Below are positions 8,980 to 34,273 of a stretch of 64,000 nt of DNA, piece by piece. Positions within the stretch are counted from its first letter, which is position 1. The number at the start of each line of letters is the position of its first letter. The translations under genes were made by a program, and so were the position numbers. This DNA comes from Bacteroidales bacterium (GTDB taxonomy: Bacteria; Bacteroidota; Bacteroidia; Bacteroidales; UBA932). Below the pieces are notes generated by a model. That model made no database searches and had not been told where the DNA came from. It worked only from the letters and a program-made list of their open reading frames with translations. The stretch spans positions 151,283 through 215,282 of the forward strand of contig JAFQAR010000043.1 in assembly GCA_017399905.1 (NCBI GenBank), in the 5' to 3' direction.

Positions 8980-9361
8980 AAATAAAGTGACAGAATTTTT
9001 CGTGGTTTTGAGCGAGGTTTGCGAATGAGGTTCGGGACTGGATTTCGGGGCCATGAAAAAGTGAGGGGAAGTATGCGCTGACACGGCCTTGAAAGGGGCT
9101 GGGTGTCGGTCGCTTTTGTAGGGTTTTGAGACGTCATCGCGAGAAGCGATCGACATTGCGATTAGCACGTCATTGCGAGAAGCGAAGCGACGTGGCCGAT
9201 CGACGAAGTCGCTGAAGCGGATGCGGAAGAATCTCCGAGCGGACCACGAAATTGTGTGTGAAAAGAAACAATAAAAAATAGAAACTAAAATGAAGAAACA
9301 GATGAAAAGAACTGTTTATGAAGCACCGGTCACCGAGCGCTTCCAGGTGGAGCTGGAAGGC
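8971..9361 (+). repeat. Long inverted repeat, left arm
   Basis: Matches the reverse complement of 34201-34800 over the leader and the first 24 codons of the peptide gene. Nearly identical blocks run from TTTAAACGGACAAATAAAG to TCGCTTTTGTAGGG, then through a REP-type palindrome (9167-9196), diverge, and match again from GAAATTGTGTGTGAAAAG into the coding start. The right arm has an extra insertion with two more REP copies. The arms face each other across 25 kb. Confidence 0.85.
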
Positions 9362-9487
9362 TGTTTCTGTGCGTCTGTGGTTAAGGATCAATCAAGTACG
9401 ACAGAGACAACCGGACACGAAATGGGTGCTGAAATAGATGCTGACGATAAGGGTTGGAATGATGATAACAATAACCCTTGGGGCTAA
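9290..9487 (+). CDS. Short CAS-motif peptide P1
   Basis: 65 residues: MKKQMKRTVYEAPVTERF, then QVELEGCFCAS, then a variable acidic tail rich in D, N, T and E ending GWNDDNNNPWG. No signal peptide, membrane segment or known domain. Its first 24 residues are identical to peptide P4 at 34064-34273, and the pattern (Y)xxP, acidic (V/I)ExEG, (C/G)AS is shared with P2 (17803-17946) and P3 (26508-26633). The gene opens the left operon, 14 nt before a large lipoprotein gene. The layout of a conserved front and a hypervariable tail recalls leader and core parts of processed peptides, but no maturation enzyme is nearby. Function unknown. Confidence 0.75.
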   Translation: MKKQMKRTVYEAPVTERFQVELEGCFCASVVKDQSSTTETTGHEMGAEIDADDKGWNDDNNNPWG

Positions 9488-9501
9488 TGGAGGACATAGT
9501 T

Positions 9502-12108
9502 ATGAGAAAGAATTACATACATATTGCGCTTTCATGCGCCGCATTACTCACTCTTGCAAGTTGCGTAGAGGAAAATCTTGAGCCTGTTAAGCCTGCTCAG
9601 GTCGGAGATGAAATCATTTTCGGTGTTCGTGCTGGATTTGAAGACTCAGATCCTAAAACCAAAACTGAATATGGTGGCAAGGAGTCAGAATATGTTTATA
9701 ATAATAAAACTTACGAACGTATTAATTGGGTGGCTGGCGATATGGTGGAAATCTATTCACCTGACGCAGCAAACAATTCACAGTCTTTCCATTATACGGT
9801 AACTAAAACAAATCCTCCTACATCTGGTGATAATGGTGAGAATTCTTCATATGAAGGCCATCTCAAAGACTATGCATATCTTACCCGTTATGGAGATGCA
9901 GGAATTCAGTGGGGGGCAGCAGAAACTCATCGTTTTTATGCTATGTACCCTTCTTCTGTAATGTGGACAGCTAATCCTGATCCTGAAGTTACAGTTGGAT
10001 CCGGAGTATATATGGATTATGTAGATGATTCGCCAATCGTACACGGAATCATTCCTATCGTTCAAACACCAACAAAGCAGATATATGAGTCATCATCAGG
10101 TCATTGGGTCGTTCCGGCTGATATGAAGTATGCTTATATGGTAGCGAGAGGAGAAGCGACCAAAGCAGATGCATCTGTTGCTCTTACATTTGTTCCGATT
10201 GTTACCGCGGTTGAAATTGAGCTTATACTTGACAGCCCTGCAGATGCATATGAAACAGTTGATGCTGTTAATATTGATTATGTTCAGGTTATTGGAAACG
10301 GTATTGCAGGAGCTTTTACCGCTGACCTTTCACAATGGGAAGGTACTGCTTATCCTGAATGTATAAATAGCCAAGATGGCTCAGACGTTATAACGATAGA
10401 CGTGCGTGACGCTACCCAAAATTCACGAACAATTCCATCTGGAGGCTCGCTGACTTTTACAGTATTCGTGCGCCCAGGAGCGGATATAGATGATTTGAAT
10501 GTCTCTTTCTTTGACGGAACCCGTTTCATTGGTAAGGATTTAAAAGGTGCGGATATTACTAAGAACTTAAAAACCAGAATTGTTGATGTACGCTTACCAA
10601 AGAAGGTAACTGAACTTCCGGTTTATTCAGATAAGTGGATGGATAGAATCAGTGGTGATGTCGAAATGAAGGCCTTATCATTGCCTGGTACAGGAAATAG
10701 TTTTTCTTATGCATACTCAGGTTCAAATAGACAATATTATGCCACTCAAACACGGAATATGTATATAAAAACACAGTGGAATTTAGGTATCAGGGCTTTT
10801 GAGATAGTTTGTAATCGTCCAAGTTTTACTGATATTGAGAGTACAACTGCCACACTTGGGGATCAGGACGTCGAATGTAACAAGACTCCAGTCGGCGTGA
10901 AGGTAAAAGCCGCACTTGATAGCATAATTGTTAATCTTCGTCCAAAAGGAACCAGTAAAGAGCAATGGTCCGAGACTGCTGCCGTCATATTAACTTACCA
11001 GCCTCATGATGAGGACATAGCTAGAAATGCTCAGTATTTTGCCAGAGCTTTAGTTAACTTTTATGATGCAACATTACGTACTCCAGGATATGAAGATATA
11101 TTTAAACTATATGAACCTGGAACTAATCTTGATGATGTTCGTGGTAGTATATTGTTAATCTGTCGTATCAATCAAAGACATGAAGGTGAGACATCAATAG
11201 AAGACTCGAGCAACAACAACGGTAATACGGGTACAAATACTTCAATTGCTTGGGCCCAAGATAATTTCAGTGCGGCAATCAATATTATAGGAAATAGAAA
11301 TATTCTACTTATTGATGGTTGTGGTACAGGTAAGGATAAATGGGGCTCTCGAGGCTACAAAGTAAAATCTGGCGAAAATATGTTGCCTGTGCTTGACATG
11401 GATTGCAAAGTAGATGAAGTGTCAACTGATGCAGTAACATATAGTTTTGTTGAACAATATATGGATAACACGACAGAGTGGTCCGATTACATTTCAGTGC
11501 CAGCACATGATGTGACGGGACTAACAAATCCTGGAAATATTAATTTCACATATAAGACTAATCAGGAAGGTTTTAATTGTTGGGTTCAGGAGTGGGCACG
11601 TGTTTCAAATGGTAGCACTAATAGACCTGAATATTTCAGACGTTATACTTCTAGCGGAACGGTTTGGTATAATTCATATAATGAGAAGTTAGCCAATGCT
11701 GCTTACACTTTCCATAAATCACTTAATGATGCTACTGCATCCATGGTTTATATCAATTGGCTTGGAGGTTACTTGGTAACCACGGGAGTATCTGGTAGCT
11801 ATACAAGATACTGGAGTGAATCCGGCGCTTTTGGCGAATGGGGCGGTGACGGCGGTGACGTTCAAGGTCTCGCAAATAAACTCAATCCTAATTTCATGGA
11901 AGTTGTGGAAAATTCCGGTTGGGAGAATAAGACTGGCCCTGCAGGTATCGTAATGATTGACTATGTAGGAGCAACTCCAGGAGCGGAAGAATTACCAGGA
12001 ACAATCCTGATGAATAACTTCAGACATGATGCAGCAGCCGGTGGCGGAGTTATCATAACTCCGCCAGGTGGTTCAGGCGATGATTTAGACAACGAAATTG
12101 AAGAATAA
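9502..12108 (+). CDS. Lipoprotein: fimbrillin-like domain plus degenerate PI-PLC-like domain (A)
   Basis: 868 residues from the ATG at 9502, chosen because it begins the lipoprotein signal MRKNYIHIALSCAALLTLASC (an upstream in-frame ATG at 9478 would spoil it). Residues 30-370 resemble fimbrillin-family domains (INWVAGDMVEIY, KYAYMVARGEATKADASVAL, LTFVPIVTAVEIEL). From about 380 there is a PI-PLC X-like pattern: ALSLPGTGNSF (about 392) and WNLGIRAFEIVCNR (about 428). In active enzymes the first motif contains the catalytic His-Asp (LPGTHDS); here it is Gly-Asn, and the second catalytic His is not seen, so activity is doubtful. The tail is Gly/Pro-rich and acidic. A similar protein heads the opposing operon. 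Surface-exposed by inference. Confidence 0.65.
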   Translation: MRKNYIHIALSCAALLTLASCVEENLEPVKPAQVGDEIIFGVRAGFEDSDPKTKTEYGGKESEYVYNNKTYERINWVAGDMVEIYSPDAANNSQSFHYTVTKTNPPTSGDNGENSSYEGHLKDYAYLTRYGDAGIQWGAAETHRFYAMYPSSVMWTANPDPEVTVGSGVYMDYVDDSPIVHGIIPIVQTPTKQIYESSSGHWVVPADMKYAYMVARGEATKADASVALTFVPIVTAVEIELILDSPADAYETVDAVNIDYVQVIGNGIAGAFTADLSQWEGTAYPECINSQDGSDVITIDVRDATQNSRTIPSGGSLTFTVFVRPGADIDDLNVSFFDGTRFIGKDLKGADITKNLKTRIVDVRLPKKVTELPVYSDKWMDRISGDVEMKALSLPGTGNSFSYAYSGSNRQYYATQTRNMYIKTQWNLGIRAFEIVCNRPSFTDIESTTATLGDQDVECNKTPVGVKVKAALDSIIVNLRPKGTSKEQWSETAAVILTYQPHDEDIARNAQYFARALVNFYDATLRTPGYEDIFKLYEPGTNLDDVRGSILLICRINQRHEGETSIEDSSNNNGNTGTNTSIAWAQDNFSAAINIIGNRNILLIDGCGTGKDKWGSRGYKVKSGENMLPVLDMDCKVDEVSTDAVTYSFVEQYMDNTTEWSDYISVPAHDVTGLTNPGNINFTYKTNQEGFNCWVQEWARVSNGSTNRPEYFRRYTSSGTVWYNSYNEKLANAAYTFHKSLNDATASMVYINWLGGYLVTTGVSGSYTRYWSESGAFGEWGGDGGDVQGLANKLNPNFMEVVENSGWENKTGPAGIVMIDYVGATPGAEELPGTILMNNFRHDAAAGGGVIITPPGGSGDDLDNEIEE

Positions 12109-12114
12109 CTAAAT

Positions 12115-12142
12115 GTGCTCAAGGACACACACCCTTGAGCAC
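12115..12142 (+). other. Intercistronic hairpin after lipoprotein A
   Basis: GTGCTCAAGG (12115-12124) pairs perfectly with CCTTGAGCAC (12133-12142). No U-run follows, so it may protect or process the mRNA or partly terminate it, leaving the downstream CotH genes at lower level. A comparable hairpin occupies the same place in the opposing operon (31421-31452). Confidence 0.6.
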
Positions 12143-12169: not shown

Positions 12170-14965
12170 ATGAGATTCAACCACAAATTTTCAGCATTGA
12201 TTCTAGGATTCTTTGCTATGGCTTCATGTATGAAGATCGAGACATTACAGGAGTCAGAATCTGAGCAGAATTTTGTTGCAGAAGTTGTCCCTGCAACAAT
12301 AATCAATGAAGATGAAGTAAACACGAAAACCTACATTGACGAACACGAGAACTATTCGAGCGGAGTCGGAACAATGTGGAATGCAAAAGAGCAGATCGGT
12401 GTTTACAGTAACTATTCAAAAAATGTGAAATACACCAGTACGAACAAATCCGGTTCTGGAGATATCACATTCTCAGGCTTTTGCCTTGGCACACCAAATC
12501 ACGCTTATTATCCTTACAGTACTACTAACAACAATGTCTCCTTGAAGTCTGTAAAGGGAAATGTTCCGTCAGAACAGACATTCAGCAATCTTGACATGAG
12601 GCTTACCGCTGATTACAGAGCTGGTGTTCTTGATTCAAAGACGTTGGTTACAGCGAAATTTACATTTACTAGGTTGATGACATACTGGAGATTCCTTGTA
12701 AATGTAACAGATACTCCACTTGCGGGTACTAAAGTTGAATCCATCACCATTAAGGCCAACAATAACCGCAAATTAGCCGGTAACTTCAATATTAATCTTG
12801 AGACTCAGCAGATTACATTGAAGGAATTCTCAGAAGGAGATGACTTCGTAACTCTTAAATGGGAAAATGAGCCACGACTTATGAGTGGGAATACGTATGC
12901 TGCCTATATGACTGTACTTCCAGTAGTACGCCCTGGTGATATTCTTACTTTTACAATAACTACTGACAGGTATATTGCAACATTTACGAAGACGATTAAG
13001 AATCAGCAGGTCGGAAATTCAATCGTTAAGTATACAATTAATCTTGCATCTTCTGACAACCTTAAGATTACAGAGATTCCGCGTCCTGAACTTCCTGTCG
13101 ATCCAGAGCCAGAAACCCCAGCCGTCGGCACACATCCGGTGCTGAAGAGCATGAAGTTTACTGTGGCTGACAATCCTGGAAAGATTCTGGGTCGCAAGCT
13201 TGAGGCAAGCAACTACAAGACTGTTTCAAAGACAAGGACTGAGGAGGTCTGCACTGTCGATACTACCAATCACACGATCAGCCTTTACCTCCCTTACCTT
13301 AACAACCGCAAGCTCGTTCCTGTGTTTGAGATTCCGGAAGGAACCCAGCTTTTCTATGAGGGCGGAGAGATCATCAGTGGTGAGACCGAGGTGGATTTCG
13401 CGACTTACAAGCAGGTTGCTGTCGTGAATGAGGTCGGTGACGGAGTCATCTATGACATAAACTTCACCAATACCGGCCTCCCTGTAGTGGTCGTGAACCA
13501 GAAGAGCGGCATCGTCACTTCTGATAATGGAGACTACAAAGGTGGCAGCACGGCATGGTACAATGCTACCGGAACCGGCTGGCAGCCAAAGGAAAGTGAT
13601 TGGTTGATGGTAGAAGGCGATGATAATTTCATGGTATATAATGCCGACGGAACATCTGCAATCACAGACAAGAACGGAGCGACTGTAAACGAGCCTCTTC
13701 TTGCTTCGACCCGCGTACGCGGAAATGTGAGCCAGAAGATGCCTAAGAAGCCTTTCGCTGTGAAGCTTGACAAGAAGTCGGGAATCTTCATGAACGACTC
13801 TGACCAGTCAAACGACCTTCCTGCCCACAAGCGTTGGGTACTTCTCGCAAACTGGAGTGACCGTACGCTGATGCGTAACGCAATCGCCTTCGGAATTGCT
13901 GACATCTTCAAGCAGACATTCCCGACTGACGGCATCGCATGGAATCCTTCAGGTCAGTTTGTGGAGCTCGTGTACAACGGTGTACACGTCGGCAACTACT
14001 ATCTCTGCGAACATATTAAGATCGACGGCAACCGTCTTGACATCGCTGATCCATACGACAAGGACGATGCATATTCAGGCAATCCTGCTGACTACGGTTA
14101 CCTCCTTGAATCGGATGATGGTTATGATGAAACTGTCAAGTTCATCACAAAGACATACATTCCGTTCCAGTTCAAGGATGACGCGGATGCCGGCGGAAAG
14201 ATGCTCGCTTATGCAAAGGGTATCGTCAATGGAATTGACGACAATCTTTATGCTGGAAACTACAGTGAAGCATACAAGACAATGGACCTCACGTCATTTG
14301 TAGATTTCCTTCTAATTCAGGAACTTACGATGAATGGTGAACTTGCCCATCCAAAAAGTTGTCATTCTTATATTGAAGATGGAAAATTGTATGCAGGACC
14401 TGTCTGGGACTTCGACTGGCAGACATTCCCGAACATTGGTATCATCAATAGTTTGTATGACAATGCATATACAGGAGGCTCAAACTCTTACAAGTACGAG
14501 TATGCTAAATCTATGTTGGAAACAGGTACGCTCAAACATAGCGATTCTGAACCGACATCGGTAAACGAAGATGATAAATCTTATATGTGGTATCCGATGC
14601 TCGTCAAGGATGCAACATTCAAGAATATGGCTGCTGAGCGTTGGAATATGGTAAAGGGAGCAATTTCAGCATATGCAGATACTCAAATTCCGGTTATGGC
14701 GGCAAAAATCAGGAAATCCGAAACAGAAAACTGGAGCATGTGGCCGTTAGAGTCAGGCAGCAGAGCCGGTCAGAACAGATGGAGCACATATGATGTCGGC
14801 GGCGGATTCAAAGGTGATGAAGCTATGACGTTTGACAATGCCGTATCGACCCTCACAAACAATCTGAATACAAGAATCAATGGCATGAGCTACGTTACAA
14901 ATAAATCTTGGCCTACTATCAATGCTTCATCATCAGGCGGAGGCAGCAGCTGGTGGCCATGGTAA
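12170..14965 (+). CDS. CotH kinase-like lipoprotein 1
   Basis: 931 residues. Lipoprotein signal FFAMASC at the N-terminus; fimbrillin-like domain about 25-310 (MWNAKEQIGVYSN, HAYYPYSTTNNN); a DUF5018-like beta domain about 320-440 (SMKFTVADNPGKILGRKL); then the CotH domain about 440-920. Key CotH stretches are TRVRGNVSQKMPKKPFAVKL, KRWVLLANWSDRTLMRNAIA, VELVYNGVHVGNYYLCEHIK and the metal/catalytic GPVWDFDWQT (about 745). CotH proteins are secreted atypical protein kinases (Bacillus CotH phosphorylates spore-coat proteins); the Bacteroidales substrates are unknown. The C-terminus ends SSWWPW after a Gly/Ser stretch. Followed 24 nt later by CotH 2, so cotranscribed. Confidence 0.85.
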   Translation: MRFNHKFSALILGFFAMASCMKIETLQESESEQNFVAEVVPATIINEDEVNTKTYIDEHENYSSGVGTMWNAKEQIGVYSNYSKNVKYTSTNKSGSGDITFSGFCLGTPNHAYYPYSTTNNNVSLKSVKGNVPSEQTFSNLDMRLTADYRAGVLDSKTLVTAKFTFTRLMTYWRFLVNVTDTPLAGTKVESITIKANNNRKLAGNFNINLETQQITLKEFSEGDDFVTLKWENEPRLMSGNTYAAYMTVLPVVRPGDILTFTITTDRYIATFTKTIKNQQVGNSIVKYTINLASSDNLKITEIPRPELPVDPEPETPAVGTHPVLKSMKFTVADNPGKILGRKLEASNYKTVSKTRTEEVCTVDTTNHTISLYLPYLNNRKLVPVFEIPEGTQLFYEGGEIISGETEVDFATYKQVAVVNEVGDGVIYDINFTNTGLPVVVVNQKSGIVTSDNGDYKGGSTAWYNATGTGWQPKESDWLMVEGDDNFMVYNADGTSAITDKNGATVNEPLLASTRVRGNVSQKMPKKPFAVKLDKKSGIFMNDSDQSNDLPAHKRWVLLANWSDRTLMRNAIAFGIADIFKQTFPTDGIAWNPSGQFVELVYNGVHVGNYYLCEHIKIDGNRLDIADPYDKDDAYSGNPADYGYLLESDDGYDETVKFITKTYIPFQFKDDADAGGKMLAYAKGIVNGIDDNLYAGNYSEAYKTMDLTSFVDFLLIQELTMNGELAHPKSCHSYIEDGKLYAGPVWDFDWQTFPNIGIINSLYDNAYTGGSNSYKYEYAKSMLETGTLKHSDSEPTSVNEDDKSYMWYPMLVKDATFKNMAAERWNMVKGAISAYADTQIPVMAAKIRKSETENWSMWPLESGSRAGQNRWSTYDVGGGFKGDEAMTFDNAVSTLTNNLNTRINGMSYVTNKSWPTINASSSGGGSSWWPW

Positions 14966-14989: not shown

Positions 14990-17740
14990 ATGATACTGAA
15001 ATTTAGGAATATTCTCACAGCAGCAGCCATCATAGCGATGGCTGCCGGCTGTACCCCTTCGACACCAGAGCCGGAGGAGACGGTATCTCAGAAGATTACG
15101 GCCAGCGTTGTCGATAATGGCGGCGTGGCGGGCCAGTGGTCGACAAGCGACCAGATCGGTGTCTATACCGACAAGTCGGAGAAGAACGTGAAGTACACTA
15201 ACACTGCGACCAAGAACGCCGCTTCAGCAAGCTTCAAGGCTTCGACCGAGGTGAAGGGCAATCCTCAGTATGCGTACTACCCTTACAGCAGCGCAAATTC
15301 GTCTAAGGCTGCAACAGGCCTTGCAGGCACCCTGCCTCAGGAGCAGGTGATGACCGCAGCAGGCGTATATCCATACGATTACCGCTATGGCGTGCAGACC
15401 GGCACCGATTCTGACGAGAACGCAGTCTTCGAGTTCCACAGCATGTTCGCGACCGTATGCATCAATGTGGATGCTGCCGGAACCGTACTTGCCGGACAGG
15501 CTCTTGAGAGCGTGAGCGTGAAGGTGAGCCGTCAGGGTACGGATGTCCCTGTTGCCGGTTCGTTCACATTCAGCGCGGCTGACGGTTCGTACACATACAC
15601 CAGCGCAAGCGCATCAAGCAGCGTGACCGCTTCATGGGCAGCTGCAAAGACCCTTACAGGCGTGACAGCGTTCTATGCAACGATGTTCCCTACCTTGGAG
15701 GCCGGCGACGTGATGACGTTCGAGATGAACACCGAGGCCGGAAAGGCGACAGTCAATGTTACCGTATCAAAGTCCTTCGATCCTGAGGGATTCTATACAT
15801 TCGAGGTGAAGGCCGCAGAGGGCGAGATCAGCGTTCCTGAGGTTCCTGCAGTCGCTCCTGAGCTTTTCAGCATGAAGTTCACCGTGGCCCAGAACCCTGG
15901 CAAGATCCTCGGACGCAAGCTCACATACAGCTCATCAGCAACGACTTACACCACAAGGAAAGAGGAGGTCTGCACCGTTGATGCGGACAAGCGCACAGTG
16001 AGCCTCTACCTCCCTTACTTCAACAACCGCACTCTCGTGCCTGTATTCGAGATTTCCGAGGGCGCGACGATGACTGTCGGCGGCAATGTGGTCGTAAGCG
16101 GACAGACAGCTGTGGATTTCGCGGCAAACAAGGAAATCACCGTCACCAACAGCAAGGGCGAGACAGCTGTATATACCGTCAACTTCACCAACACCGGTCT
16201 TCCTGTAGTGGTCGTAAACCAGCAGACAGGAGTGGTGACATCGGCAAGCGGCGACACCCAGAAGGGCAGCGCAGCATGGTACAAGGCGACAGGCGCGGCT
16301 TGGCAGCCGAAGGACAGCGACTGGCTGATGACCGAGGGCGTGGACAACTTCATGGTGTACAACGCCGATGGTACTTCTGCCGTGACCGACAAGGGCGGCG
16401 CGACCGTCAATGAGCCTCTGGATGCTTCGACCCGCGTACGCGGAAACGTGAGCCAGCAGATGCCTAAGAAGCCTTTCGCGGTGAAGCTTGACAAGAAGTC
16501 GGGCGTTCTCGGAATGGCCCCTCACAAGCGTTGGGTGCTCCTCGCAAACTGGAGCGACCGTACGCTGATGCGTAACGCGGTGGCATACGACATCGCCGAG
16601 ATCTTCCGCAACACGTTCACCGACGGCATCGCATGGAGCCCGTCAGGACAGTTCGTGGAGCTCGTTTACAACGGTGTGCATGTCGGAAACTACTACCTCT
16701 GCGAGCAGGTGAAGATCGACGCAGGCCGTCTTGATATCGCGGATCCATACGACGTGGATGACGCATATTCAGGCAATCCTGCCGACTACGGCTACCTCCT
16801 CGAGTGCGACGACGCATACGACGAGACCGTGAAGTTCATCACGAAGACATACATTCCGTTCATGTTCAAGGATGACGCTGACGCAGGCGGAAACATGCTC
16901 GCTTATGCAAAGGAGATCGTGAACGGCATCGACGACAATCTCTACAACGGCAAGTGGGCTGATGCTTTCGCGAAGATGGACATGGCTTCATTCGTGGATT
17001 TCCTTCTCATTCAGGAGCTTATGATGAACGGAGAGCTCGGTTATCCTAAGAGCGTATATACTTACATCGACGGCGGAAAGCTCTACGCTGGCCCTATCTG
17101 GGACTTCGACTGGCAGACTATTCCGAACATTTCGGTGATCGAAAGCAACTACGACAATGCATACACCAACAACGGTGGCAAGGCATCATACAATTTCACA
17201 TACACCAAGTCAATGCTCGCTACTGCGACATTCAACCGCAAGAGCAGCGCACCTACATCGGTGAACAATGACGACAAGTCGTTCATGTGGTATCCGATGC
17301 TCGTGAAGAACGCAGACTTCACGGCTATGGCTGCAGAGCGCTGGGATGCCGTGAAGGGCATGATCGGAGCATATGCGGACACTCAGATTCCTGCAATGGC
17401 AGCAAAGATCAAGAAGTCCGAGGCAGAGAACTGGAGCATGTGGAAGCTTGAGTCAGGCAGCAGCGCAGCCCGCAGCAGATACAATACATACGGTATCGGA
17501 GGCGGCTTCAAGGGTGATGAGGCCATGACATTCGACAATGCTGTTTCGACTCTGTCGAAGAACCTCAACACACGTATCAGCGGCATGAGCTACGTTTCAA
17601 GCCAGACATGGCCAAGCGTAAGCGGTGTGCCTTCTTATAGCGGTTCATCGTCAGGCAGCGGTTCTGACAGCGGCTCAGGAAGTGGTTCCGGAAGCGGATC
17701 AGGCAGCGGCAACTGGTGGGGCAGCTGGTGGCCTTGGTAA
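14990..17740 (+). CDS. CotH kinase-like lipoprotein 2
   Basis: 916 residues, lipoprotein signal IIAMAAGC. The fimbrillin-like N-terminal domain (VSQKITASVVDNGG, YAYYPYSSANSSKAATGLAG, DYRYGVQTGTDSD) is not that of CotH 1 but nearly that of the EEP proteins at 21206-24631 on the other strand, while the DUF5018-like middle and the CotH domain (GPIWDFDWQT, about 702) match CotH 1 very closely, a clear domain mosaic. The C-terminus is an extended Ser-Gly run (17641-17715) ending NWWGSWWPW. GC and codon use are richer in G+C than CotH 1. Secreted kinase-like role as for CotH 1; substrate unknown. Confidence 0.85.
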   Translation: MILKFRNILTAAAIIAMAAGCTPSTPEPEETVSQKITASVVDNGGVAGQWSTSDQIGVYTDKSEKNVKYTNTATKNAASASFKASTEVKGNPQYAYYPYSSANSSKAATGLAGTLPQEQVMTAAGVYPYDYRYGVQTGTDSDENAVFEFHSMFATVCINVDAAGTVLAGQALESVSVKVSRQGTDVPVAGSFTFSAADGSYTYTSASASSSVTASWAAAKTLTGVTAFYATMFPTLEAGDVMTFEMNTEAGKATVNVTVSKSFDPEGFYTFEVKAAEGEISVPEVPAVAPELFSMKFTVAQNPGKILGRKLTYSSSATTYTTRKEEVCTVDADKRTVSLYLPYFNNRTLVPVFEISEGATMTVGGNVVVSGQTAVDFAANKEITVTNSKGETAVYTVNFTNTGLPVVVVNQQTGVVTSASGDTQKGSAAWYKATGAAWQPKDSDWLMTEGVDNFMVYNADGTSAVTDKGGATVNEPLDASTRVRGNVSQQMPKKPFAVKLDKKSGVLGMAPHKRWVLLANWSDRTLMRNAVAYDIAEIFRNTFTDGIAWSPSGQFVELVYNGVHVGNYYLCEQVKIDAGRLDIADPYDVDDAYSGNPADYGYLLECDDAYDETVKFITKTYIPFMFKDDADAGGNMLAYAKEIVNGIDDNLYNGKWADAFAKMDMASFVDFLLIQELMMNGELGYPKSVYTYIDGGKLYAGPIWDFDWQTIPNISVIESNYDNAYTNNGGKASYNFTYTKSMLATATFNRKSSAPTSVNNDDKSFMWYPMLVKNADFTAMAAERWDAVKGMIGAYADTQIPAMAAKIKKSEAENWSMWKLESGSSAARSRYNTYGIGGGFKGDEAMTFDNAVSTLSKNLNTRISGMSYVSSQTWPSVSGVPSYSGSSSGSGSDSGSGSGSGSGSGSGNWWGSWWPW

Positions 17741-17802: not shown

Positions 17803-17946
17803 ATGAAAGTGAATTTTATCAATGGAAAAGCAGCTGACGTGAGATATGAGTCACCTGCAGCAGAAGCGATCGTAATCGAATCGGAGGGCGTGCTCTGCGC
17901 GAGCGGCCAGAACGAGGAGTGGAACGAAGAGACCCTTGGACAGTAA
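17803..17946 (+). CDS. Short CAS-motif peptide P2
   Basis: 47 residues: MKVNFINGKAADVRYESPAA, then EAIVIESEGVLCAS, then the tail GQNEEWNEETLGQ. It shares with P1, P3 and P4 the YxxP element, the acidic (V/I)ExEG and the CAS, whereas the tail after CAS is unique. It lies 62 nt after CotH 2 and 29 nt before CotH 3, so each peptide gene of the island stands immediately ahead of a lipoprotein gene. It has no signal peptide. Function unknown; a regulatory, processed or substrate peptide is possible. Confidence 0.65.
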   Translation: MKVNFINGKAADVRYESPAAEAIVIESEGVLCASGQNEEWNEETLGQ

Positions 17947-24631: not shown

Positions 24632-24680
24632 GGTAATGTGTGTTAAGTGGTTAAGATATAAATGTGTGTGTTGGTGTCGG

Positions 24681-26507: not shown

Positions 26508-26633
26508 TTACTCTGCGTCGAAAGCATCGCCGCCGTCGCCGACTTCTGTGTCCACAGACGCGCAGAGCACGCCCTCTACCTCGATGTCGATAACCTCGAC
26601 CTCTGGTGTCATGTAATTCATTGTCTTCATCAT
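26508..26633 (-). CDS. Short CAS-motif peptide P3
   Basis: 41 residues (40 if the second ATG at 26630 is used): MMKTMNYMTPEVEV, then IDIEVEGVLCAS, then the acidic tail VDTEVGDGGDAFDAE. The EGVLCAS core is identical to P2 and the CAS is shared with P1. The gene lies between the hairpin repeat behind CotH 4 and EEP 3, 21 nt before the latter. The acidic, Gly-rich tail is unrelated to the other three tails. Too short to assign, but its match to P1, P2 and P4 in the same relative place argues that it is real. Confidence 0.65.
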   Translation of the reverse strand: MMKTMNYMTPEVEVIDIEVEGVLCASVDTEVGDGGDAFDAE

Positions 26634-26779: not shown

Positions 26780-29455
26780 CTATTCTGTAAATCTTCCGCT
26801 CGTGATAAGCGTGTTCATTCCCGCCAGACGAGCCTCGTATACAGTCTTGAAGTTGTCAATAAGATCATCCCAGTCATTGATGTTCTCGTCACCGCTCCAG
26901 TCAGTGAAGCCGCTCTTATGTGCATGAATGTCGGCTTCTGTGGTAGGCCACATAGCGCTGTCCTCGACGAATGATGCCCTCATAGGCTCCCTGTAAGCTT
27001 CTATCGTATTCACGACATTCTGCAGATACGGATAGATGACAGCCCAACGGTCCTGTACCCTCTGTTGGAAGATAGGGTCGGTGATCAGCTTCTTGTACCA
27101 GAAATAGTTGTCGCTGCTTCCCGTTCTCCAGCATATCCACTCGTCGTACGGCTTGATACGGTCGCTGTTGCCCTGAGTTGCGGCATTGGTCGTGTTCTGG
27201 AAGGTTCCACGGTCAAAGTCCCATACCGGTCCTGCAGAAAGCTTTCCGGCTCCGTCCATGAAATAGTAGACCGAGCGAGGGTCACCGTATTCGCGGTTCA
27301 TGGTAAGCTCCCAGATGAACCACTGGTCGATGACGGTATTCAGGTCAAGGTCATCGTATGCCGCTGCAAAGTTGCCGTTATAAAGATTGTCCTCTATGCC
27401 CTGGACCTTAGACTGAACGGCTGACAGGATGTCATCGTTTACTGCATCCTTGAACATGAAAGGAACATCGTTGTCGGTCTTGAACTTCCAATCTTCATCA
27501 TAATTGTTGTCAACCTCGAGGAGATATCCGCAGTCAGCCATAGTCGGATTGGAATTAGTCTCCAGGACATCCTCATACGGATCTGTTATGTCGAGACGGT
27601 TTCCGTCGATCTTGATCTGCTCGCAGAGGTAGTAGTTGCCGACATGGTGGCCCACGCCATCCTTGCTGAATACGACGAGTTCCACATTCTGACCATGTAC
27701 ATTCCATGGAATACCGTCGCCGATGTATTCTGTGGCTGGAGAATTATTTTTATGATATCTCCATGCATCCTCGATCGCATGCGCGATGTCAAAGGCTACG
27801 GTATTGCGGATCATAGAATGGTCGAGCCAGTTGGCAAGCAAGACCCAACGCTTGTGCTTCGGCATGCCGAGGATGCCGGTCTTCGAAGTCAGCTTGACCG
27901 CAAAAGGCTTCTTCGGATAGTCCTGCGATGTGTTTCCGCGGAGCTTGGCGCCGCATGTCATCGTCATGTCAATGTTTCCGTTTGCATTGTACACCGTAAT
28001 CTGGTCAGTCTCAACCCATTCGGTATCCTTGCCGCGGACCATGAAGTTCACGAATTTATTGCGGGCATTGCCGCTCAGCTGTGCCCAGAAATCCTTATAC
28101 ACGCCACCGAAATCTCCGTCGGAAGAATGTTTCAGCACAACTACAGGCAGACCTGTATTGCTGAGAGTCACCTTATAGTCGCGGTAATCGTCAGCAGTCG
28201 ACACGGTCAAAGTCGCACCTCCGGTGAAATCTACCTCCGTCGAGCCGCTGGTGACGGTCTGGCCGCCTACGGTAACTGTAGCGCCATCTGCCACGGTGAA
28301 CGTCGGTACAAGCTTGAAGTCGTAGAGATACGGAATCATCACGTTGATGTTGTTGCCGTCTGTTGTCGAAGTGTGCTCAGTCACTGATTTGAAAGATGGC
28401 TTCCTCGAACTCCAGACAGTCTTGTTGTCAAGAAGTTTGCCGGTATTTCTGGATACTTCAAACTTGAAGTTGCTCATCGTAGGACGGGCTGTCACGGCAT
28501 ATCCGTACTTTGATGTGTTTGCCGCGAAAGTCGAAAGCTTCAACGGGAATGTATAGTACATCTCCGACTCGAAATCGGCCTTTGAAGTTACCGTGAACGT
28601 CATTTTCTTGTCAGGCGTCCTTACGGCGAAGGTCAGCTTGTCACCGCTCCTGATCTCTGGGAATACGGTCGCGAAGCTTGAAAGCTCGCCGTCGAGGGTC
28701 CGGTTCCATACAGTCTTCAGCTCATTCGAGGTCGTCGTAGCCTCGTATGTTCCGTCCACTGCGCTGAATGTGAACTCTCCGGTCACAGGGACTGCTGCTC
28801 CGTCGCGGGTTACGGTCAAGGTGACGCTCTCAAGCGTCTGTCCGGCGAATTCCGTTCCGGTCGCATCGACCTTGAAACGCACGAGCGAGAACATGTTGTG
28901 GAACTTGAACTTGTATCCGCCCTCGGCAGTAACGGCCTTCAGCTTGCCGTACTTGTAGTCGGATGGAAGTGAGTCGCCCATAGTCTGCTCCGCAGGAACG
29001 GCTCCGGTCAGCTCGGTCGCCGAATTTCCGTCGTTCGCTTCGTCGTACGGGTAGTATGCATACTGGATGTCCCCGCTTACATTCGCGCTGCTTGAGAACG
29101 ATGCGTTAGGCACATTCCCGGTCTGCTCGTCGTTGATATAGAGGACGTTGGCGCTTCCGGTCGAGAACACGCCGAGCTGGTCTCCCGGTATCCAGAGGAC
29201 TGCCAGCGTTCCGCCGTTGTCCGCCTCCGCCTCATCGATGCTCGTACGCGTCTGCGGCATCTCAAATGCATCCACAGCCTCAGCTGCACGGCCTTCCGTC
29301 CCTGCTGCAGCGCGGGTCTGCGGCTCCTCCGACAGCTCCGCGAATATCTTCGGAGCATTGCCGGCCTGCTCCGGCTCATGCCTCTGCTCCTCCACGCAGC
29401 CTGCGGCAAGCAGGGCGGAAGTCATTGCTGCAATTGTTATCTTGTTAAATTTCAC
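26780..29455 (-). CDS. CotH kinase-like lipoprotein 4
   Basis: 891 residues, lipoprotein signal SALLAAGC. After an unusual Glu/Ala-rich spacer (EPEQAGNAPKIFAELSEEPQ) comes a fimbrillin-like domain nearly the same as in EEP 3 (VLWIPGDQLGVFSTGSANV, YAYYPYDEANDGNSATELTG), then a DUF5018-like domain (SNFKFEVSRNTGKLLDNK) and a CotH domain: KLRGNTSQDYPKKPFAVKL, MPKHKRWVLLANWLDHSMIR, HHVGNYYLCEQIKIDGNRL, ELTMNREYGDPRSVYYF. The metal motif is GPVWDFDRGTF (about 743), Arg-Gly where CotH 1-3 have Trp-Gln, and the enzyme domain is clearly more distant from them. The only CotH in the right operon, between EEP 4 and P3. Confidence 0.85.
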   Translation of the reverse strand: MKFNKITIAAMTSALLAAGCVEEQRHEPEQAGNAPKIFAELSEEPQTRAAAGTEGRAAEAVDAFEMPQTRTSIDEAEADNGGTLAVLWIPGDQLGVFSTGSANVLYINDEQTGNVPNASFSSSANVSGDIQYAYYPYDEANDGNSATELTGAVPAEQTMGDSLPSDYKYGKLKAVTAEGGYKFKFHNMFSLVRFKVDATGTEFAGQTLESVTLTVTRDGAAVPVTGEFTFSAVDGTYEATTTSNELKTVWNRTLDGELSSFATVFPEIRSGDKLTFAVRTPDKKMTFTVTSKADFESEMYYTFPLKLSTFAANTSKYGYAVTARPTMSNFKFEVSRNTGKLLDNKTVWSSRKPSFKSVTEHTSTTDGNNINVMIPYLYDFKLVPTFTVADGATVTVGGQTVTSGSTEVDFTGGATLTVSTADDYRDYKVTLSNTGLPVVVLKHSSDGDFGGVYKDFWAQLSGNARNKFVNFMVRGKDTEWVETDQITVYNANGNIDMTMTCGAKLRGNTSQDYPKKPFAVKLTSKTGILGMPKHKRWVLLANWLDHSMIRNTVAFDIAHAIEDAWRYHKNNSPATEYIGDGIPWNVHGQNVELVVFSKDGVGHHVGNYYLCEQIKIDGNRLDITDPYEDVLETNSNPTMADCGYLLEVDNNYDEDWKFKTDNDVPFMFKDAVNDDILSAVQSKVQGIEDNLYNGNFAAAYDDLDLNTVIDQWFIWELTMNREYGDPRSVYYFMDGAGKLSAGPVWDFDRGTFQNTTNAATQGNSDRIKPYDEWICWRTGSSDNYFWYKKLITDPIFQQRVQDRWAVIYPYLQNVVNTIEAYREPMRASFVEDSAMWPTTEADIHAHKSGFTDWSGDENINDWDDLIDNFKTVYEARLAGMNTLITSGRFTE

Positions 29456-29479: not shown

Positions 29480-31375
29480 TTAAATGACCTCTTCTTCCCA
29501 CTCATTAACATTTGCCTGAGAGGTCGTGGTCATCTCATAGTAGAATTCCACGACGATAGGCCAGTGGTCTGCCATTCCGGAGAAGTCCGCATCACGGTTA
29601 TATCCGTTTGCATATATCTGCACAGATGCTCCTGAGTCGTTGATATACATCACCTTATCCACGACCTCACCCTTCTGGCTTGAGTATATGATGTCTGTAT
29701 CAGCATTCGTTCCTGTCGCATCGCTGACCACAAGAGACTTCTGGTCAGAGCCGTATGTCGGAAAGACGCCATCCCACTGGTAATCTACCCATGGGTCGCC
29801 GCATATCTGGTCATCAGCAAGATACTGCCAGAAATATGTCTGGAAATCATGACGTGTGTAGCGGCAGTTGGTGTCTCCCATGAAGATGACAGGGCGGTTG
29901 TTTCCGGTGAGGCCGCTGATATACTGCGCTATCTGAGTAAGCTGTGCATGCTGGGCATTGATATGATCGGATCCCGAGTCGCTGTATGTGTTCATATGTG
30001 TGATGATCACGTCAACCACAACTCCGTCGTTAAGGGTCACGACGTAATGACGGAAGCCCTTATTGATGCAGGTGTTGGCGCCTGAGGTCAATCCTCCTGC
30101 CGATGATGTAAATTCCGTCCATGATTCATTTGCAAAACTGCATGACGCATTGCGCGTCGCAAAGCATAAGCCGTCTGTGTTGTTTGAAGAAGCGGATGAA
30201 ACAGAGCCCCTGTGTGTTCCGAATGTATAATCTCCAAGTGCACTGGTAAGTTCAGTATGGTACTCAAAGTCCTCTGCGAAGCCAATGATGTCCCAACCCT
30301 TGGCCGATATCATCTGGCTGATGGACTTTGTGCCGTCCGAACCCGGGCCGTCTGTGTTTATCGGAAATATAGAAATGCTTTCAGGCAGTCCGTCAACGTT
30401 ATATGTGGCCGCCGTGAATGTTCCCGTAGTTACACTTGTACGCCCAGTGACGCTCAAGCTGGTGTTGAAGTTGCTGAGTGTCAGCGGGAAAGTGTAGACG
30501 GTGTTTGGTTCGAAGTCCACCTTTGCGGTAACAGTCAATGTCGCGGTGTGGGCAGATGTGCGGATTGTGAAGGTAAGGTTGTCACCTGTCATTATCTCCG
30601 GGAAGATGGTCGCATATCCGTGATTCGCCACATTCATGACGGGATGGGTCGGCCAATCGAAGGTCACCTTGTTTGACGTCGACACCTTTGTATATGAGCC
30701 GTCGGTCGCATTGAAGGTAAAGCTGCCGCTTACTGGTACGGCCGCACCGTTGCGGGTTACGGTAAGGTCGATTCCGATAAGGCGGTCGTCAGCGAGTGCA
30801 GTGCCAGTGCCGTCGAACTTCACGCGGATCGGCGAGAAGAGATGAGTGAAGCGGAACTGTGAACCGCTGCTTGTTGTCGATGCGTGTTCACCGATCTTAT
30901 AGTCGCCGGGAATCATTCCGGTCACGAGGTTCATCGTCTGCGTCTGAGGGATCTCACCCTTGAGGGCGGTCTTGTCCGTTCCGGCTGATGTGCTGTATGG
31001 GTAGTATGCATATTCCGGCGTGCCGCTGACGGTTGTTTCCGATGCGAACGTCGCAACCTCTACGTTGCTCTTATGGTTCGTGTTGGAATATCTGATATTG
31101 TTCTCCTGAGCATCCGTAAACACGCCGAGCGCATCATCCGGGCTCCACAATACAGGAACCTCTGTCTGTCCCTCGAGGTCGGAAGTGATGCAGGCGCGGG
31201 TCGTCGCAGGCTGGTCAATGTAGGCCACGATCGTCTTCGCCTGCTCCATGTTCTGTAGCGAGTCATTGCCCTCAAGGGCGTCAGTGGCGCATCCGGACAA
31301 AGTCAAGCCTGTCAATGCTGCAACGCAAACCGCTGCGTTGATGTTGATTTTCTTATTCATCTCCAATAAATTCAT
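29480..31375 (-). CDS. EEP-domain lipoprotein 4
   Basis: 631 residues from 31375; an ATG at 31360 (MNKKININ) gives a cleaner lipoprotein signal (GLTLSGC) and may be the true start. Fimbrillin-like domain of its own type (VLWSPDDALGVFTDAQENNI, EYAYYPYSTSAGTDKTALKG, YKIGEHASTTSSGSQFRF), then LSNFNTSL and an EEP domain with TYNVDG, GFAEDF, THMNTY, GDTNCR, ADTDI and ADHWP. The C-terminus carries an extra MTTTSQANVNEWEEEVI. First enzyme gene after the PLC-like lipoprotein B and the intercistronic hairpin; 24 nt before CotH 4. Confidence 0.85.
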   Translation of the reverse strand: MNLLEMNKKININAAVCVAALTGLTLSGCATDALEGNDSLQNMEQAKTIVAYIDQPATTRACITSDLEGQTEVPVLWSPDDALGVFTDAQENNIRYSNTNHKSNVEVATFASETTVSGTPEYAYYPYSTSAGTDKTALKGEIPQTQTMNLVTGMIPGDYKIGEHASTTSSGSQFRFTHLFSPIRVKFDGTGTALADDRLIGIDLTVTRNGAAVPVSGSFTFNATDGSYTKVSTSNKVTFDWPTHPVMNVANHGYATIFPEIMTGDNLTFTIRTSAHTATLTVTAKVDFEPNTVYTFPLTLSNFNTSLSVTGRTSVTTGTFTAATYNVDGLPESISIFPINTDGPGSDGTKSISQMISAKGWDIIGFAEDFEYHTELTSALGDYTFGTHRGSVSSASSNNTDGLCFATRNASCSFANESWTEFTSSAGGLTSGANTCINKGFRHYVVTLNDGVVVDVIITHMNTYSDSGSDHINAQHAQLTQIAQYISGLTGNNRPVIFMGDTNCRYTRHDFQTYFWQYLADDQICGDPWVDYQWDGVFPTYGSDQKSLVVSDATGTNADTDIIYSSQKGEVVDKVMYINDSGASVQIYANGYNRDADFSGMADHWPIVVEFYYEMTTTSQANVNEWEEEVI

Positions 31376-31518: not shown

Positions 31519-31555
31519 CACGTCATTGCGAGGAGCGAAGCGACGTGGCAATCTC
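31519..31555. repeat. REP-type palindrome (GCGAGGAGCGAAGCGAC)
   Basis: CACGTCATTGCGAGGAGC and GAAGCGACGTGGCAATCTC form an imperfect palindrome of a type widespread in unrelated bacteria. Other copies lie in the arms at 9167-9196, 34453-34485 and 34545-34580. Confidence 0.75.
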
Positions 31556-31563: not shown

Positions 31564-34041
31564 CTAGAACGCATCCGATCCCACTGTCGCATATGCCGCG
31601 TTCTGCTGGGTAGGTGTGGTTCCGCTACCTGAGTTGGTTGTACCGTCTCCAGTGGTAATTGAACCACCCTGACGGTTCAGGTAGAACTTACCGTTCATTT
31701 CGATGATAGCTTTAACTAAGTCCTGACTACTTGCTGTATAAGACGTGCCATTGACGGTTGCAGTGTAAAATGTATCATCTGTACAATAATTCATTAAAAC
31801 GATTCCTACAGGTGATGGATCAGTATCCATTTTTGAGACAATCTTTCCATAAAGATATGGATTAAGTCTTTCTGCTACTTCTGTACGAGAAGACTCATCG
31901 TCACTGTCATCTAAATTCTTACGACTACCTCCAATACCGATTTGGAACCACGCATCATGAGTTCCACTATCATATATAGATGTTGATTTATTTATAATAT
32001 CATCAATAGCTGTTTTACGTTCCTCATAAGTAGGGACACCATCAACTTCATAAGAATAGTAGACCTCTTTATATTTCTGTGTAGGTGGAAATGTGCTCCA
32101 ATCAAGACCATCTTCCTCTAGAACAGTATGGCCACCAGAATATGTGGTCCTTTGTGCCTGATGATAATGAAATGCAAGACTTGTATTTGATGTGCTCCAA
32201 TACATAGGAGATGTCTGCATACTATCGTAGACACCTATGACGATATCACCATTGGTCTCCGGTGCCATCGATGCATATGAAATAAGTGTGTTAGGTATAG
32301 TTGTGTAATTCAAGAAACCTGTAACACCTGACAGTCCTTGTTCCGCTGTTCCTGCGTTTGCTATTGTATTTGCATTCACTTTTACAATCATATGATCAAG
32401 TACATCATCAATAGTAGTGTCAGCTGTTATGGTTTTGCCCTTAGTCGCTTCTGTGAACCCGTAAACTCCTAGAGTACTACCATTATTTGTGAGTAAAGTC
32501 GCAATTGAATTCAGAACCTCTTTGGGGTCTACTGTTCCTAACGTGGTTCCTGAGTCTTCCTTTGGTTTTTCAGCTATGGTCAAAACCACAACTACGTATT
32601 CATCCTCAGGAATAAGTGCTGCAATGTCCTGCATTGCTTTTAGGACAGTCTTTCCCTCTGATGTGATATAGCCAAGAAATGAACCTTCAGATCCAGCACA
32701 ATACAAGTCCATATCTCCATCACGACCGCTTTTGTAAGTGAGGCGGCAGTCAATATTAAATGCACGGATACCAGCCTTATATTGCTGAGTCAGATCTGTT
32801 GTACTCTGATAGTCTCCATTTGTACAATACCAAGCTCCAGGTACAGAAAGCTCTGAGATATAAACAGGTACAGGAATCTGAGTAATCCAATTCTCAGGAT
32901 CCCATACTACTTCTTTTTTAGAAACAAGCTTTGGAACCTTAACCTTGTGAATCAGACCTGGAACCAGAGTATATCCTCCTTCAGCAGTCGGTTCCATCTT
33001 GTACACCCATGGTTCATATCCCTGTGCCTGAATTGTTACAGTCCAAAGGTCGGTAGATGTCATTTTCAGGCCTGATAATGGAACTGTAAACACATTGAAT
33101 TCGACTGCCTGATTCGCAGCAAGTTTCAGATATGAGCCACCGTCCTTGATCGTGTTGATCGTTACCGAATTGGTGTTTGTCGTGTTGTTCTTTGAGGTTG
33201 CCTTTACTGGATTAGTGTCAGATACGTCTTCATTACGAGGTATGGTCACATCAAAATCTCCTGCAATATGATAGCCTTCCGGTGCAGTAATCTTGATATT
33301 CTGGATGTAAAGTTCCGTGTTAGGAAAAAGATTCGAGTCAAATCCCATGAAACGGAACTTCAGGACAGTTGAGAATGGCTTGAATGAAAGACCTACAGGA
33401 TCGCCGGCCTTAACATCATCTGTTCTTGCATACATGATTGCGTTCGACATTGAAGGGTCGGTTGCATCATTGGCAAAATGAGTTCCTTCCCAAACAGAAA
33501 TTGTGGATGTCGTACCGTCGCTGTTTGTTACGGTCTTTGAAGTAGGCTCATCATTGAACACATAGTTCTGTGTTGAATCAATGGATGTTGTTGCTGTTAC
33601 GACCTTTGATGTCGAATTGTATGTGAATGATGCGTTTTCAGAAGGATATACTGCAACAAAATCCGATGTCGCTGCAGAGCCCCATCTGACACCGATATCA
33701 CCAGTCTTGTTCAGACCGTCTGCCACATTCTGACCATCATCAGTGTTCGGAGTACTTGTCCGCGATGTTGAGACCTGATACTCCGCCACCTGACAATCAC
33801 TACCTTCCGTACAGGTCGTTCCATAAACCATTACCTTATCACCATTTACCCACTTTACCTTGATGGCATCAGTACCATTATCTGCACCATAGAGAGTCTT
33901 GGTCTGGACTCCCGTGTTCAGACCGGCGGTAAATTCAACCTCTTCGCCTGGGGTAGGGATAATATTATCAAGGACTTTCTCCTCAACGCAAGACGTCATA
34001 ACGAAAAGGACGCCAAGTATATATGCTAAATTTCTCTTCAT
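31564..34041 (-). CDS. Lipoprotein: fimbrillin-like domain plus degenerate PI-PLC-like domain (B)
   Basis: 825 residues from the ATG at 34041 (MKRNLAYILGVLFVMTSC, a lipoprotein signal); the longer frame to 34110 runs through peptide P4. Fimbrillin-like domain about 25-370 (VKWVNGDKVMVYG, NAIMYARTDDVKAGDPVGL, SFKPFSTVLKFRF). The C-terminal domain shows ISELSVPGAWYCTNG (about 393) and YKAGIRAFNIDCRL (about 420), the places of the PI-PLC catalytic-His and Arg motifs, but the His is absent, as in lipoprotein A. A Ser/Thr/Gly-rich tail ends TVGSDAF. Lower GC than its downstream neighbours, similar to lipoprotein A. Likely a surface binding protein on a phosphodiesterase-type barrel (inference). 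Confidence 0.65.
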   Translation of the reverse strand: MKRNLAYILGVLFVMTSCVEEKVLDNIIPTPGEEVEFTAGLNTGVQTKTLYGADNGTDAIKVKWVNGDKVMVYGTTCTEGSDCQVAEYQVSTSRTSTPNTDDGQNVADGLNKTGDIGVRWGSAATSDFVAVYPSENASFTYNSTSKVVTATTSIDSTQNYVFNDEPTSKTVTNSDGTTSTISVWEGTHFANDATDPSMSNAIMYARTDDVKAGDPVGLSFKPFSTVLKFRFMGFDSNLFPNTELYIQNIKITAPEGYHIAGDFDVTIPRNEDVSDTNPVKATSKNNTTNTNSVTINTIKDGGSYLKLAANQAVEFNVFTVPLSGLKMTSTDLWTVTIQAQGYEPWVYKMEPTAEGGYTLVPGLIHKVKVPKLVSKKEVVWDPENWITQIPVPVYISELSVPGAWYCTNGDYQSTTDLTQQYKAGIRAFNIDCRLTYKSGRDGDMDLYCAGSEGSFLGYITSEGKTVLKAMQDIAALIPEDEYVVVVLTIAEKPKEDSGTTLGTVDPKEVLNSIATLLTNNGSTLGVYGFTEATKGKTITADTTIDDVLDHMIVKVNANTIANAGTAEQGLSGVTGFLNYTTIPNTLISYASMAPETNGDIVIGVYDSMQTSPMYWSTSNTSLAFHYHQAQRTTYSGGHTVLEEDGLDWSTFPPTQKYKEVYYSYEVDGVPTYEERKTAIDDIINKSTSIYDSGTHDAWFQIGIGGSRKNLDDSDDESSRTEVAERLNPYLYGKIVSKMDTDPSPVGIVLMNYCTDDTFYTATVNGTSYTASSQDLVKAIIEMNGKFYLNRQGGSITTGDGTTNSGSGTTPTQQNAAYATVGSDAF

Positions 34042-34063
34042 TGCTCTTTCGGATAAGTTAAAA

Positions 34064-34273
34064 TTAGTTGTTTCCCCAGCCTGAATCACTGAAGCCATCA
34101 TTGAAGTCACCCCAACCGCCCTGATTGTTGACTCCCTGATCTCCTGACTCTATATTTCCAGGATTGTGATTCTCATCAATGATTGAAGCCCCCAAGATCG
34201 CCCCCTCCAGCTCCACCTGGAAGCGTTCGGTGACCGGTGCTTCATAAACAGTTCTTTTCATCTGTTTCTTCAT
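34064..34273 (-). CDS. Short CAS-motif peptide P4
   Basis: 69 residues from the ATG at 34273 (longer frames run into the repetitive leader). Residues 1-24 are identical to P1 (MKKQMKRTVYEAPVTERF, QVELEG), then AILGAS in place of CFCAS, then an Asn/Gly/Asp/Trp-rich tail ending FSDSGWGNN. The break in identity falls exactly between the conserved front and the variable tail. It heads the right operon, 22 nt before lipoprotein B. The Cys of the motif is absent here, so Cys is not essential to the family pattern. Confidence 0.75.
   Translation of the reverse strand: MKKQMKRTVYEAPVTERFQVELEGAILGASIIDENHNPGNIESGDQGVNNQGGWGDFNDGFSDSGWGNN

Follow-up and report, generated by a model that had tools for sequence, protein, structure and literature searches.

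Very small acidic proteins encoded beside surface-protein genes of gut Bacteroidales: genome comparisons suggest a helper or control role

Dedicated secretion chaperones of type III and similar systems are small, acidic and encoded next to their partner. C39/double-glycine leader peptides, among them bacteriocins and the precursors of ribosomally synthesized and post-translationally modified peptides (RiPPs), are small and combine a conserved N-terminal part with a variable C-terminal part, and the leader peptides or upstream open reading frames (uORFs) of attenuated operons are short frames just before a large gene. Little is understood as yet about the way in which Bacteroidota place lipoproteins on the outer face of the membrane. 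Here we analysed a 64,000-nucleotide stretch of the genome of a Bacteroidales bacterium (contig JAFQAR010000043.1, positions 151,283 to 215,282; hereafter the window, from genome G000, 2.3 Mb and 81% complete), in which four small frames, P1 to P4, are each followed directly by a large lipoprotein gene on the same strand, as the initial annotation had pointed out. The neighbouring lipoproteins have the fimbrillin-fold domain in common with the type V pilus lipoproteins (FimA/Mfa, fimbrillin) of Bacteroidia; unlike these, the small peptides have no lipoprotein signal and are not pilins, and several of the neighbouring lipoproteins end in enzymes or binding modules. To our knowledge, no such small peptide occurs in the described fim/mfa operons. 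With dedicated secretion chaperones the peptides share their size, their acidity and the position of their genes next to a partner, although the export routes differ and no relation in sequence or fold emerged. Our comparisons suggest that these very small acidic proteins of gut Bacteroidales, encoded beside surface-protein genes, have a helper or control role.

All four frames begin with ATG, and those of P3 and P4 are present only on the minus strand, which the initial annotation had not given. P1 (65 residues, 9290..9487, plus strand; own-genome profile match E 6.1e-14) heads the plus-strand operon and P4 (69 residues, 34064..34273, minus strand) heads the minus-strand one, while P2 (47 residues, 17803..17946, plus strand) precedes the CotH lipoprotein gene o4 and P3 (41 residues, 26508..26633, minus strand) precedes the lipoprotein gene o7, which has an EEP match. 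The gap between peptide and lipoprotein is 29 nt for P2, 24 nt for P3, 22 nt for P4 and −1 or 14 nt for P1, depending on the start of o1 (the values 14 and 22 were counted by eye). Besides the first methionine, the residues invariant across the four are Y, P, E, E, E and G. The reported identity of P1 and P4 over their first 24 residues (MKKQMKRTVYEAPVTERFQVELEG) was confirmed, and it extends to the DNA: an inverted stretch of about 117 nt with 95% identity begins about 45 nt upstream of the ATG and stops at the EG motif (9245..9360 on the plus strand, covering the 5′ untranslated region (UTR) and front of P1, and its inverted copy 34203-34319 at P4). This block looks like the result of gene conversion or a shared recombination edge, and the abrupt conserved-variable boundary described earlier for P1 and P4 would be seen because the block ends there. 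The inverted copies, about 95% identical, flank the convergent operons on the outside (9081-9360 and 34203-34666), comprise two blocks of about 116 nt and could possibly serve as a substrate for inversion or gene conversion.

The four frames belong to a real small-frame family, as had been proposed, which has neither a Pfam nor an NCBIfam model: for 68 members compared, the best E values were 0.095 against NCBIfam and 0.021 against Pfam, in each case for one member and an unrelated model. Members are mostly 40-70 residues long, with a front of the form Y-x-x-P...hxh..(E)(G)hh(C/A/G)xS followed by an acidic, usually W- or F-containing tail. In the 68-row alignment (A3), the Y and P are invariant and are followed by an alternating hydrophobic stretch, the motif (E)(G)(V/I/F)(L/I)(C/A/G)xS and a tail rich in D, G, E and N. 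Tail net charge was negative in 74 of 74 peptides (median −5), and 70 of these carried an aromatic residue within their last 12 positions. An iterated profile seeded with P1-P4 and run on 61 sources recovered 63 frames at E<0.01. At the same threshold, the family profile matched 109 of 6794 real small frames from 101 sources and none of 5895 reversed-DNA or 9676 dinucleotide-shuffled frames, a control of false positives rather than of sensitivity, since some of those frames had gone into training the profile. A loose pattern alone was unspecific (181 real, 49 reversed and 104 shuffled matches), and the search pattern put forward in the initial annotation matched no frame, P1-P4 included.

In the genus of the window, a four-row profile gave matches at E<=1 in 32 of 37 genomes; among 24 others it matched 2, weakly. 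The A3 profile at E<=0.1 matched 33 of 393 genomes of the order, including some partial matches inside large frames that are probably chance. Named records with relatives of P2 and P3 (15 loci) are nearly all Bacteroidales metagenome-assembled genomes, several of them from deer, yak or cow guts. One family match (L136) comes from JAGDAE010000284.1; this contig is assigned to a Kiritimatiellae bin, but may have been misbinned and belong to Bacteroidales. A genome can hold up to about 30 peptides, as in G032 (30 at E<=0.1); this 2.7-Mb genome (loci L079-L093) also has 77 N-domain matches (see below) at E<=0.001, many of them partial, representing a large expansion of the lipoprotein class. Among PDB sequences, the four matches found (E 0.006-0.05) were all to designed armadillo-repeat proteins over 15 residues and were judged chance, and P2, the one peptide compared with a phage collection, had no match there. 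A literature search by title and abstract opening, with thin coverage of subscription papers, returned no description of the family. Because none of the kinds tested (C39 leader peptides, curated small-protein families, pilins) fits, the peptides would appear to form a new category, a designation that covers the family and its two arrangements, before and behind a neighbouring gene, and not its mechanism.

The close association with surface lipoprotein genes, also proposed earlier, holds. The next gene was a same-strand lipoprotein in 57 of 69 contexts, a same-strand gene with another signal-like start in four, a same-strand gene without a signal in two and a gene on the opposite strand in six; this count omits P4, whose frame, extended to 34064-34591 in the calling, exceeded the length limit, and it includes four weaker frames (E 0.7-4.6) added by hand and two locus pairs with identical peptides. 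In 74 peptide-lipoprotein pairs, a set that leaves out gaps above 60 nt by design and contains four duplicates or mis-called cases, the median gap was 16 nt and the commonest 12 nt (11 of 74). The neighbouring lipoproteins have a common N-terminal domain (profile A6), for which structure prediction and fold comparison gave the fimbrillin (type V pilin) fold. In eight genomes, 55 of 85 peptides at E<=0.1 lay −40 to 160 nt before a match to this N-domain: 49 of 56 in the genus of the window (G000 8/8, G032 28/30, G061 7/8, G373 4/5, G016 2/5) and, in other families, 6/6 in G235, 0/17 in G143 and 0/6 in G303. These eight are the genomes with peptides at that threshold that were also searched for the N-domain (the peptides of G026, G033 and G013 and the weak ones, E>0.1, of G425, G158, G000 and others are outside this count); the N-domain list was selected by possible adjacency, so that misses may be overstated and matches not, and, as A6 was built from peptide-adjacent genes and includes rows from G000 and G032, the independent genomes are G061, G373, G016, G235, G143 and G303.

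Searching from the N-domain genes yielded further peptides, undetected by the profile at E<=0.1, in L141, L142, L164, L168, L210, L221 and L223. G425 has a single strong N-domain gene, accompanied by a P1/P4-type peptide (L142) whose profile score is only E 0.32. In G246, which is of the same family and another genus and has no peptide at E<=1, an N-domain gene (E 2.9e-24, L143) has no peptide-like frame upstream. The lipoprotein downstream of the P3-type peptide of L138 is cut by the contig end. By eye, in L108/L208 (family f59) a lipoprotein with an N-domain opening like that of o1 (GDEIIFG) is preceded by a P1/P4-type peptide.

Peptide and N-domain vary together. Across 69 pairs (the 74 minus four duplicates or mis-called cases and one short protein), front and tail similarity correlated with N-domain similarity (Spearman 0.22 and 0.15, values reached in 0 of 500 permutations) and not significantly with C-region similarity (rho 0.07 and 0.03), in statistics that ignore genome kinship. 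P3 and its L094 ortholog illustrate this, with similarities of 0.78 for the tail, 0.74 for the N-domain and 0.02 for the C-region. Judged from these comparisons, peptide similarity follows the N-domain of the lipoprotein and not its swappable CotH/EEP half. The link to CotH and EEP genes noted before is indirect, since the peptides track the fimbrillin-like N-domain rather than the C-terminal half.

The position of the peptides within operons bears on whether the frame could act only in cis. In a subset of 20 N-domain genes without a profile-detected peptide (2 in G061, 7 in G373, 11 in G032; distances taken to the profile-match start), three have a peptide by eye and no long gene ending within 170 nt, and the remaining 17 begin 2-71 nt behind a long same-strand open reading frame (ORF); the search pattern also flagged frames at L227 and L228, judged chance inside a long overlapping frame. 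The window genes o2, o3, o5, o6 and o8 likewise start close behind a long same-strand gene. Given this 3 to 17 division, the peptide mostly marks lipoprotein genes that open an operon or sub-block. Such placement is what would be expected of a leader ORF whose translation near the lipoprotein start couples or tunes translation of the lipoprotein, the product itself mattering little. The often short and sometimes overlapping gaps agree with this, as do the DNA-level conservation of the P1/P4 5′ UTR and front and, in 67 cases, the lack of any promoter-like site from the start of the peptide to that of the lipoprotein, which speaks against a separate promoter for the lipoprotein (within 350 nt upstream, such sites occurred in 8 of 67 versus 3 on the antisense strand, a difference too slight to rely on). 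However, o9 has no peptide despite lying 188 nt from o10, an exception to the head-of-block rule, and no Rfam element reached its gathering score in positions 8000-36000 of the window. Furthermore, the peptides resemble attenuation leaders or uORFs in being short frames ahead of a large gene and differ from them in showing protein-level selection and in lying also behind a neighbouring gene, as described below. The head-of-block rule would follow from a pure leader ORF, whereas these two features would not, and we consider such an ORF rather unlikely.

Selection at the amino-acid level is evident first in the front, where purifying selection had been predicted. The ratio of non-synonymous to synonymous substitution rates (dN/dS) was 0.13-0.18 in seven of 13 comparisons, 0.50 between P1 and P4 and 0.74 between P2 and L035 (few changes), and dS was saturated in the other four. 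The tails differ by type. P2-type tails keep the motif GQxEEWxE(E/D)xL in the window and five other loci: GQNEEWNEETLGQ in the window and L035, GQFEEWEEETLPW in L036, GQFEEWNEETLEW in L127, GQFEEWNEDTLEW in L128 and GQFEEWKEEEL in L129. Synonymous versus non-synonymous tail changes, to be read against about 3.5-5.5 times more non-synonymous than synonymous sites, numbered 4 vs 0 for P2-L035, 6 vs 5 for P2-L127, 5 vs 8 for P2-L036, 3.5 vs 4.5 for L036-L127 and 9.8 vs 8.2 for L075-L134; for P3 and its orthologs, which precede an o7-type lipoprotein start, they were 9 vs 2 (P3-L138), 8.7 vs 4.3 (P3-L094) and 10 vs 4 (L094-L138). These counts point to purifying selection on P2- and P3-type tails across genomes. 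The complete divergence after AS described in the initial annotation is accordingly found among the window paralogs and P1/P4-type relatives and not among P2- and P3-type orthologs elsewhere, and tail hypervariability is strong in the P1/P4 type and not supported for the P2 type.

A conserved front joined to a tail that is strongly variable in the P1/P4 type could also be read as an exported peptide, the front serving as a non-canonical leader for export that is cleaved near CxS, with release of the acidic tail as a signal, a ligand or a substrate of surface enzymes. Small residues at −3/−1 of CxS and the surface proteins encoded next door are compatible with this idea, which we nonetheless judge unlikely; conservation of the P2- and P3-type tails runs counter to it. 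Peak hydrophobicity had a median of 1.18 in 74 peptides, compared with 2.40 in the signal peptides of the neighbouring lipoproteins, and no lipobox or lipoprotein signal was detected in P1-P4, which at 41-69 residues and with low peak hydrophobicity were also rejected as fimbrillins or type V pilins themselves. The leader/core reading of the initial annotation, taken in the double-glycine/C39 sense, fares no better. The peptides are like C39/double-glycine leaders in their small size and two-part structure, yet the site at the end of the front is mostly C/A/G-x-S with x unrestricted (A, Q, G, T, S, E, K, F, N, M or V), unlike the GG, GA or GS at the end of a double-glycine leader, and none of the 68 members matched an NCBIfam precursor model. 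C39 peptidase (PF03412) gave no match in 10 of 18 genomes, including the carriers G000, G061 and G373 (both latter 100% complete), G032, G143 and G303, of which G061, G373, G032, G143 and G303 each have at least five peptides; the eight genomes with C39 include the peptide-free G246 and G315 as well as the carriers G016 and G235. Because C39 exporters are missing from near-complete carriers (G061, G373, G032), and given the composition of the site, a double-glycine leader/core peptide with a C39 exporter (peptidase-containing ATP-binding cassette transporter, PCAT) was ruled out.

In some other families, the same peptide front lies behind genes instead of before lipoprotein genes. In G143 and G303 (family f107), a same-strand gene ends within 80 nt upstream of 21 of 23 peptides (E<0.1), and by eye 19 of these 21 upstream proteins carry a C-terminal tail of the form YxLxGxRVxxxxKGLYIVNGKKVxxK. 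Although NCBIfam sorting models did not match these proteins, their tails may be a divergent sorting tail of the type IX secretion system (T9SS), in which case most of them would be exported. In G054 (family f19), the genes ending 20 nt upstream of the two peptides each have a T9SS type A sorting domain, scored at 45.6 and 32.6 bits against a curated cut-off of 23. The number of matches to this domain (TIGR04183) was eight in G054, four in G373, one in G032 and none in G000, G016, G061, G425 and G246; given this distribution, the genus form does not depend on T9SS sorting. Over 145 rows, which include the same places under several locus names, 55 peptides lay before a gene only, 34 behind only, 45 both and 11 neither. 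At L171 and L173 (G143), three secreted-looking proteins have identical or nearly identical last 45 residues with similar peptides behind them, so that C-terminal tail and peptide have apparently been duplicated together.

The same peptide segment, from Y+7, was placed as a beta strand in both AlphaFold models made for stretches reading through peptide and lipoprotein, with a predicted local distance difference test (pLDDT) score of about 55 for the block; the peptide parts had no fold match of their own, which is uninformative either way. In the second model, 3 of 50 PDB rows (2ra1, 8enu, 5j7c) start at residues 13-18, from which a placement of the peptide strand in an immunoglobulin-like sheet might follow, and they were not used. 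A strand that completes the fimbrillin-like beta-sandwich from the periplasm or surface, like the trans donor strand of type V pili, would be a further role for such a segment; the peptides have no clear export signal, the pLDDT is low and peptides behind T9SS-type proteins would be left unexplained, and we regard this role as quite improbable.

As the export routes tested do not fit, and a leader ORF leaves both the selection and the members at the 3′ side unexplained, we favour, tentatively, the view that P1-P4 are tiny acidic Bacteroidales proteins encoded beside one large exported surface protein and acting as its cytoplasmic, co-transcribed accessory partner. The peptide would be made in step with the surface protein, as suggested by the median gap of 16 nt, would stay in the cytoplasm and could bind the N-domain of the partner, or its C-terminal part in the 3′ units, through the conserved beta-prone front. 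It may then keep the partner export-competent or gate its export, in the manner of a dedicated secretion chaperone, with the acidic tail adding partner specificity. More doubtfully, the family might represent a class of partner-specific cytoplasmic microproteins, escorts of about 45 residues that recognise the anchoring or sorting end of their cargo and serve two export routes, those of fimbrillin-type lipoproteins and of T9SS-type proteins. Such genes could have been overlooked because they are so small.

Several observations weigh against a cytoplasmic partner. Lipoproteins of the same fold exist without a peptide (o2, o3, o5, o6, o8, o9 and 17 elsewhere), and an N-domain match is lacking next to three of the five G016 peptides and to every one of the 23 in G143 and G303. 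Hydrophobicity ranges of peptides (maximum 2.20) and signal peptides overlap. The AlphaFold strand is of low confidence, and both models come from nearly the same rows, with no unrelated-peptide control and no readable strand partner. The P1/P4-type tails are hardly constrained, with 12.5-13.8 synonymous versus 26-32 non-synonymous changes in five comparisons (dN 0.47-0.63). Additionally, two L055 paralogs have like tails (0.88) and unrelated N-domains (0.02), and the 11 G032 pairs taken alone are not significant. Physical linkage alone could produce joint inheritance of peptide and N-domain, and could suffice, because in both arrangements the peptide tracks the half of its neighbour that is adjacent in the DNA. 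Overall, the reading given in the initial annotation is partly supported.

The lipoprotein genes of the window form two convergent operons, P1-o1-o2-o3-P2-o4 on the plus strand (9290-20762) and P4-o10-o9-o8-P3-o7-o6-o5 on the minus strand (34273-21206), and together make up an array of ten modular surface lipoproteins (9478-34110), with fimbrillin-like N-domains joined to CotH-kinase or EEP-like domains. All ten have a lipobox by a home-made rule and are thus lipoprotein-like. On the plus strand, o1 (9502..12108, starting with MRKN at 9502 or MEDIVMRKN at 9487) has an N-domain profile match; the operon-internal CotH genes o2 (12170..14965) and o3 (14990..17740) are without a peptide, and the CotH gene o4 (17976..20762), found also in the N-domain search, lies behind P2. 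On the minus strand, o5 (21206..22951) and o6 (22967..24688) combine the N-domain with an EEP match; o7 (24681..26483, start about 26483), whose predicted N-domain has the fimbrillin fold, and the peptide-less o9 (29480..31375) combine Mfa_like_1 with EEP, and o8 (26780..29455) combines Mfa_like_1 with CotH. All four EEP matches (o5, o6, o7, o9) fall under the curated Pfam cut-off, and o1 and o10 matched no Pfam family; o10 (31564..34041, start about 34041), behind P4, is distantly related to o1, with 25% identity across 511 aligned columns. N-domains are common to o7/o8 and to o3/o5/o6, with differing C-terminal halves; o7 and o8 are 65% identical across about 305 N-domain residues, followed by the EEP match in o7 versus CotH in o8. 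A promoter-like −33/−7 site (TTTG...TAnnTTTG; 8920..8951, plus strand), a consensus match only, lies about 340 nt upstream of P1, and the same consensus was not found in the stretch before P4. Dispersed repeats resembling repetitive extragenic palindromes (REP-like, CGTCATTGCGAGAAGCGA type) occupy intergenic positions around the operons (9131-9185, 31519-31549, 34445-34615). Further out, a SIR2_2 and STAND NTPase protein, possibly a defence gene, is encoded upstream of the plus-strand operon (5604-7937), a PDDEXK_2 transposase-family gene lies upstream of P4 on the same strand (35039-36106), and 40742-50420 holds a SusC/SusD-like pair followed by an 854-residue protein (no Pfam match at 1e-5) and an S8 subtilase.

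If the peptides are needed for export or dosage of their neighbours, they would be a missing part of surface biogenesis in Bacteroidota and a handle for assigning surface operons. A co-encoded factor of this kind, if real, would make part of the delivery of Bacteroidota lipoproteins to the surface directly testable.

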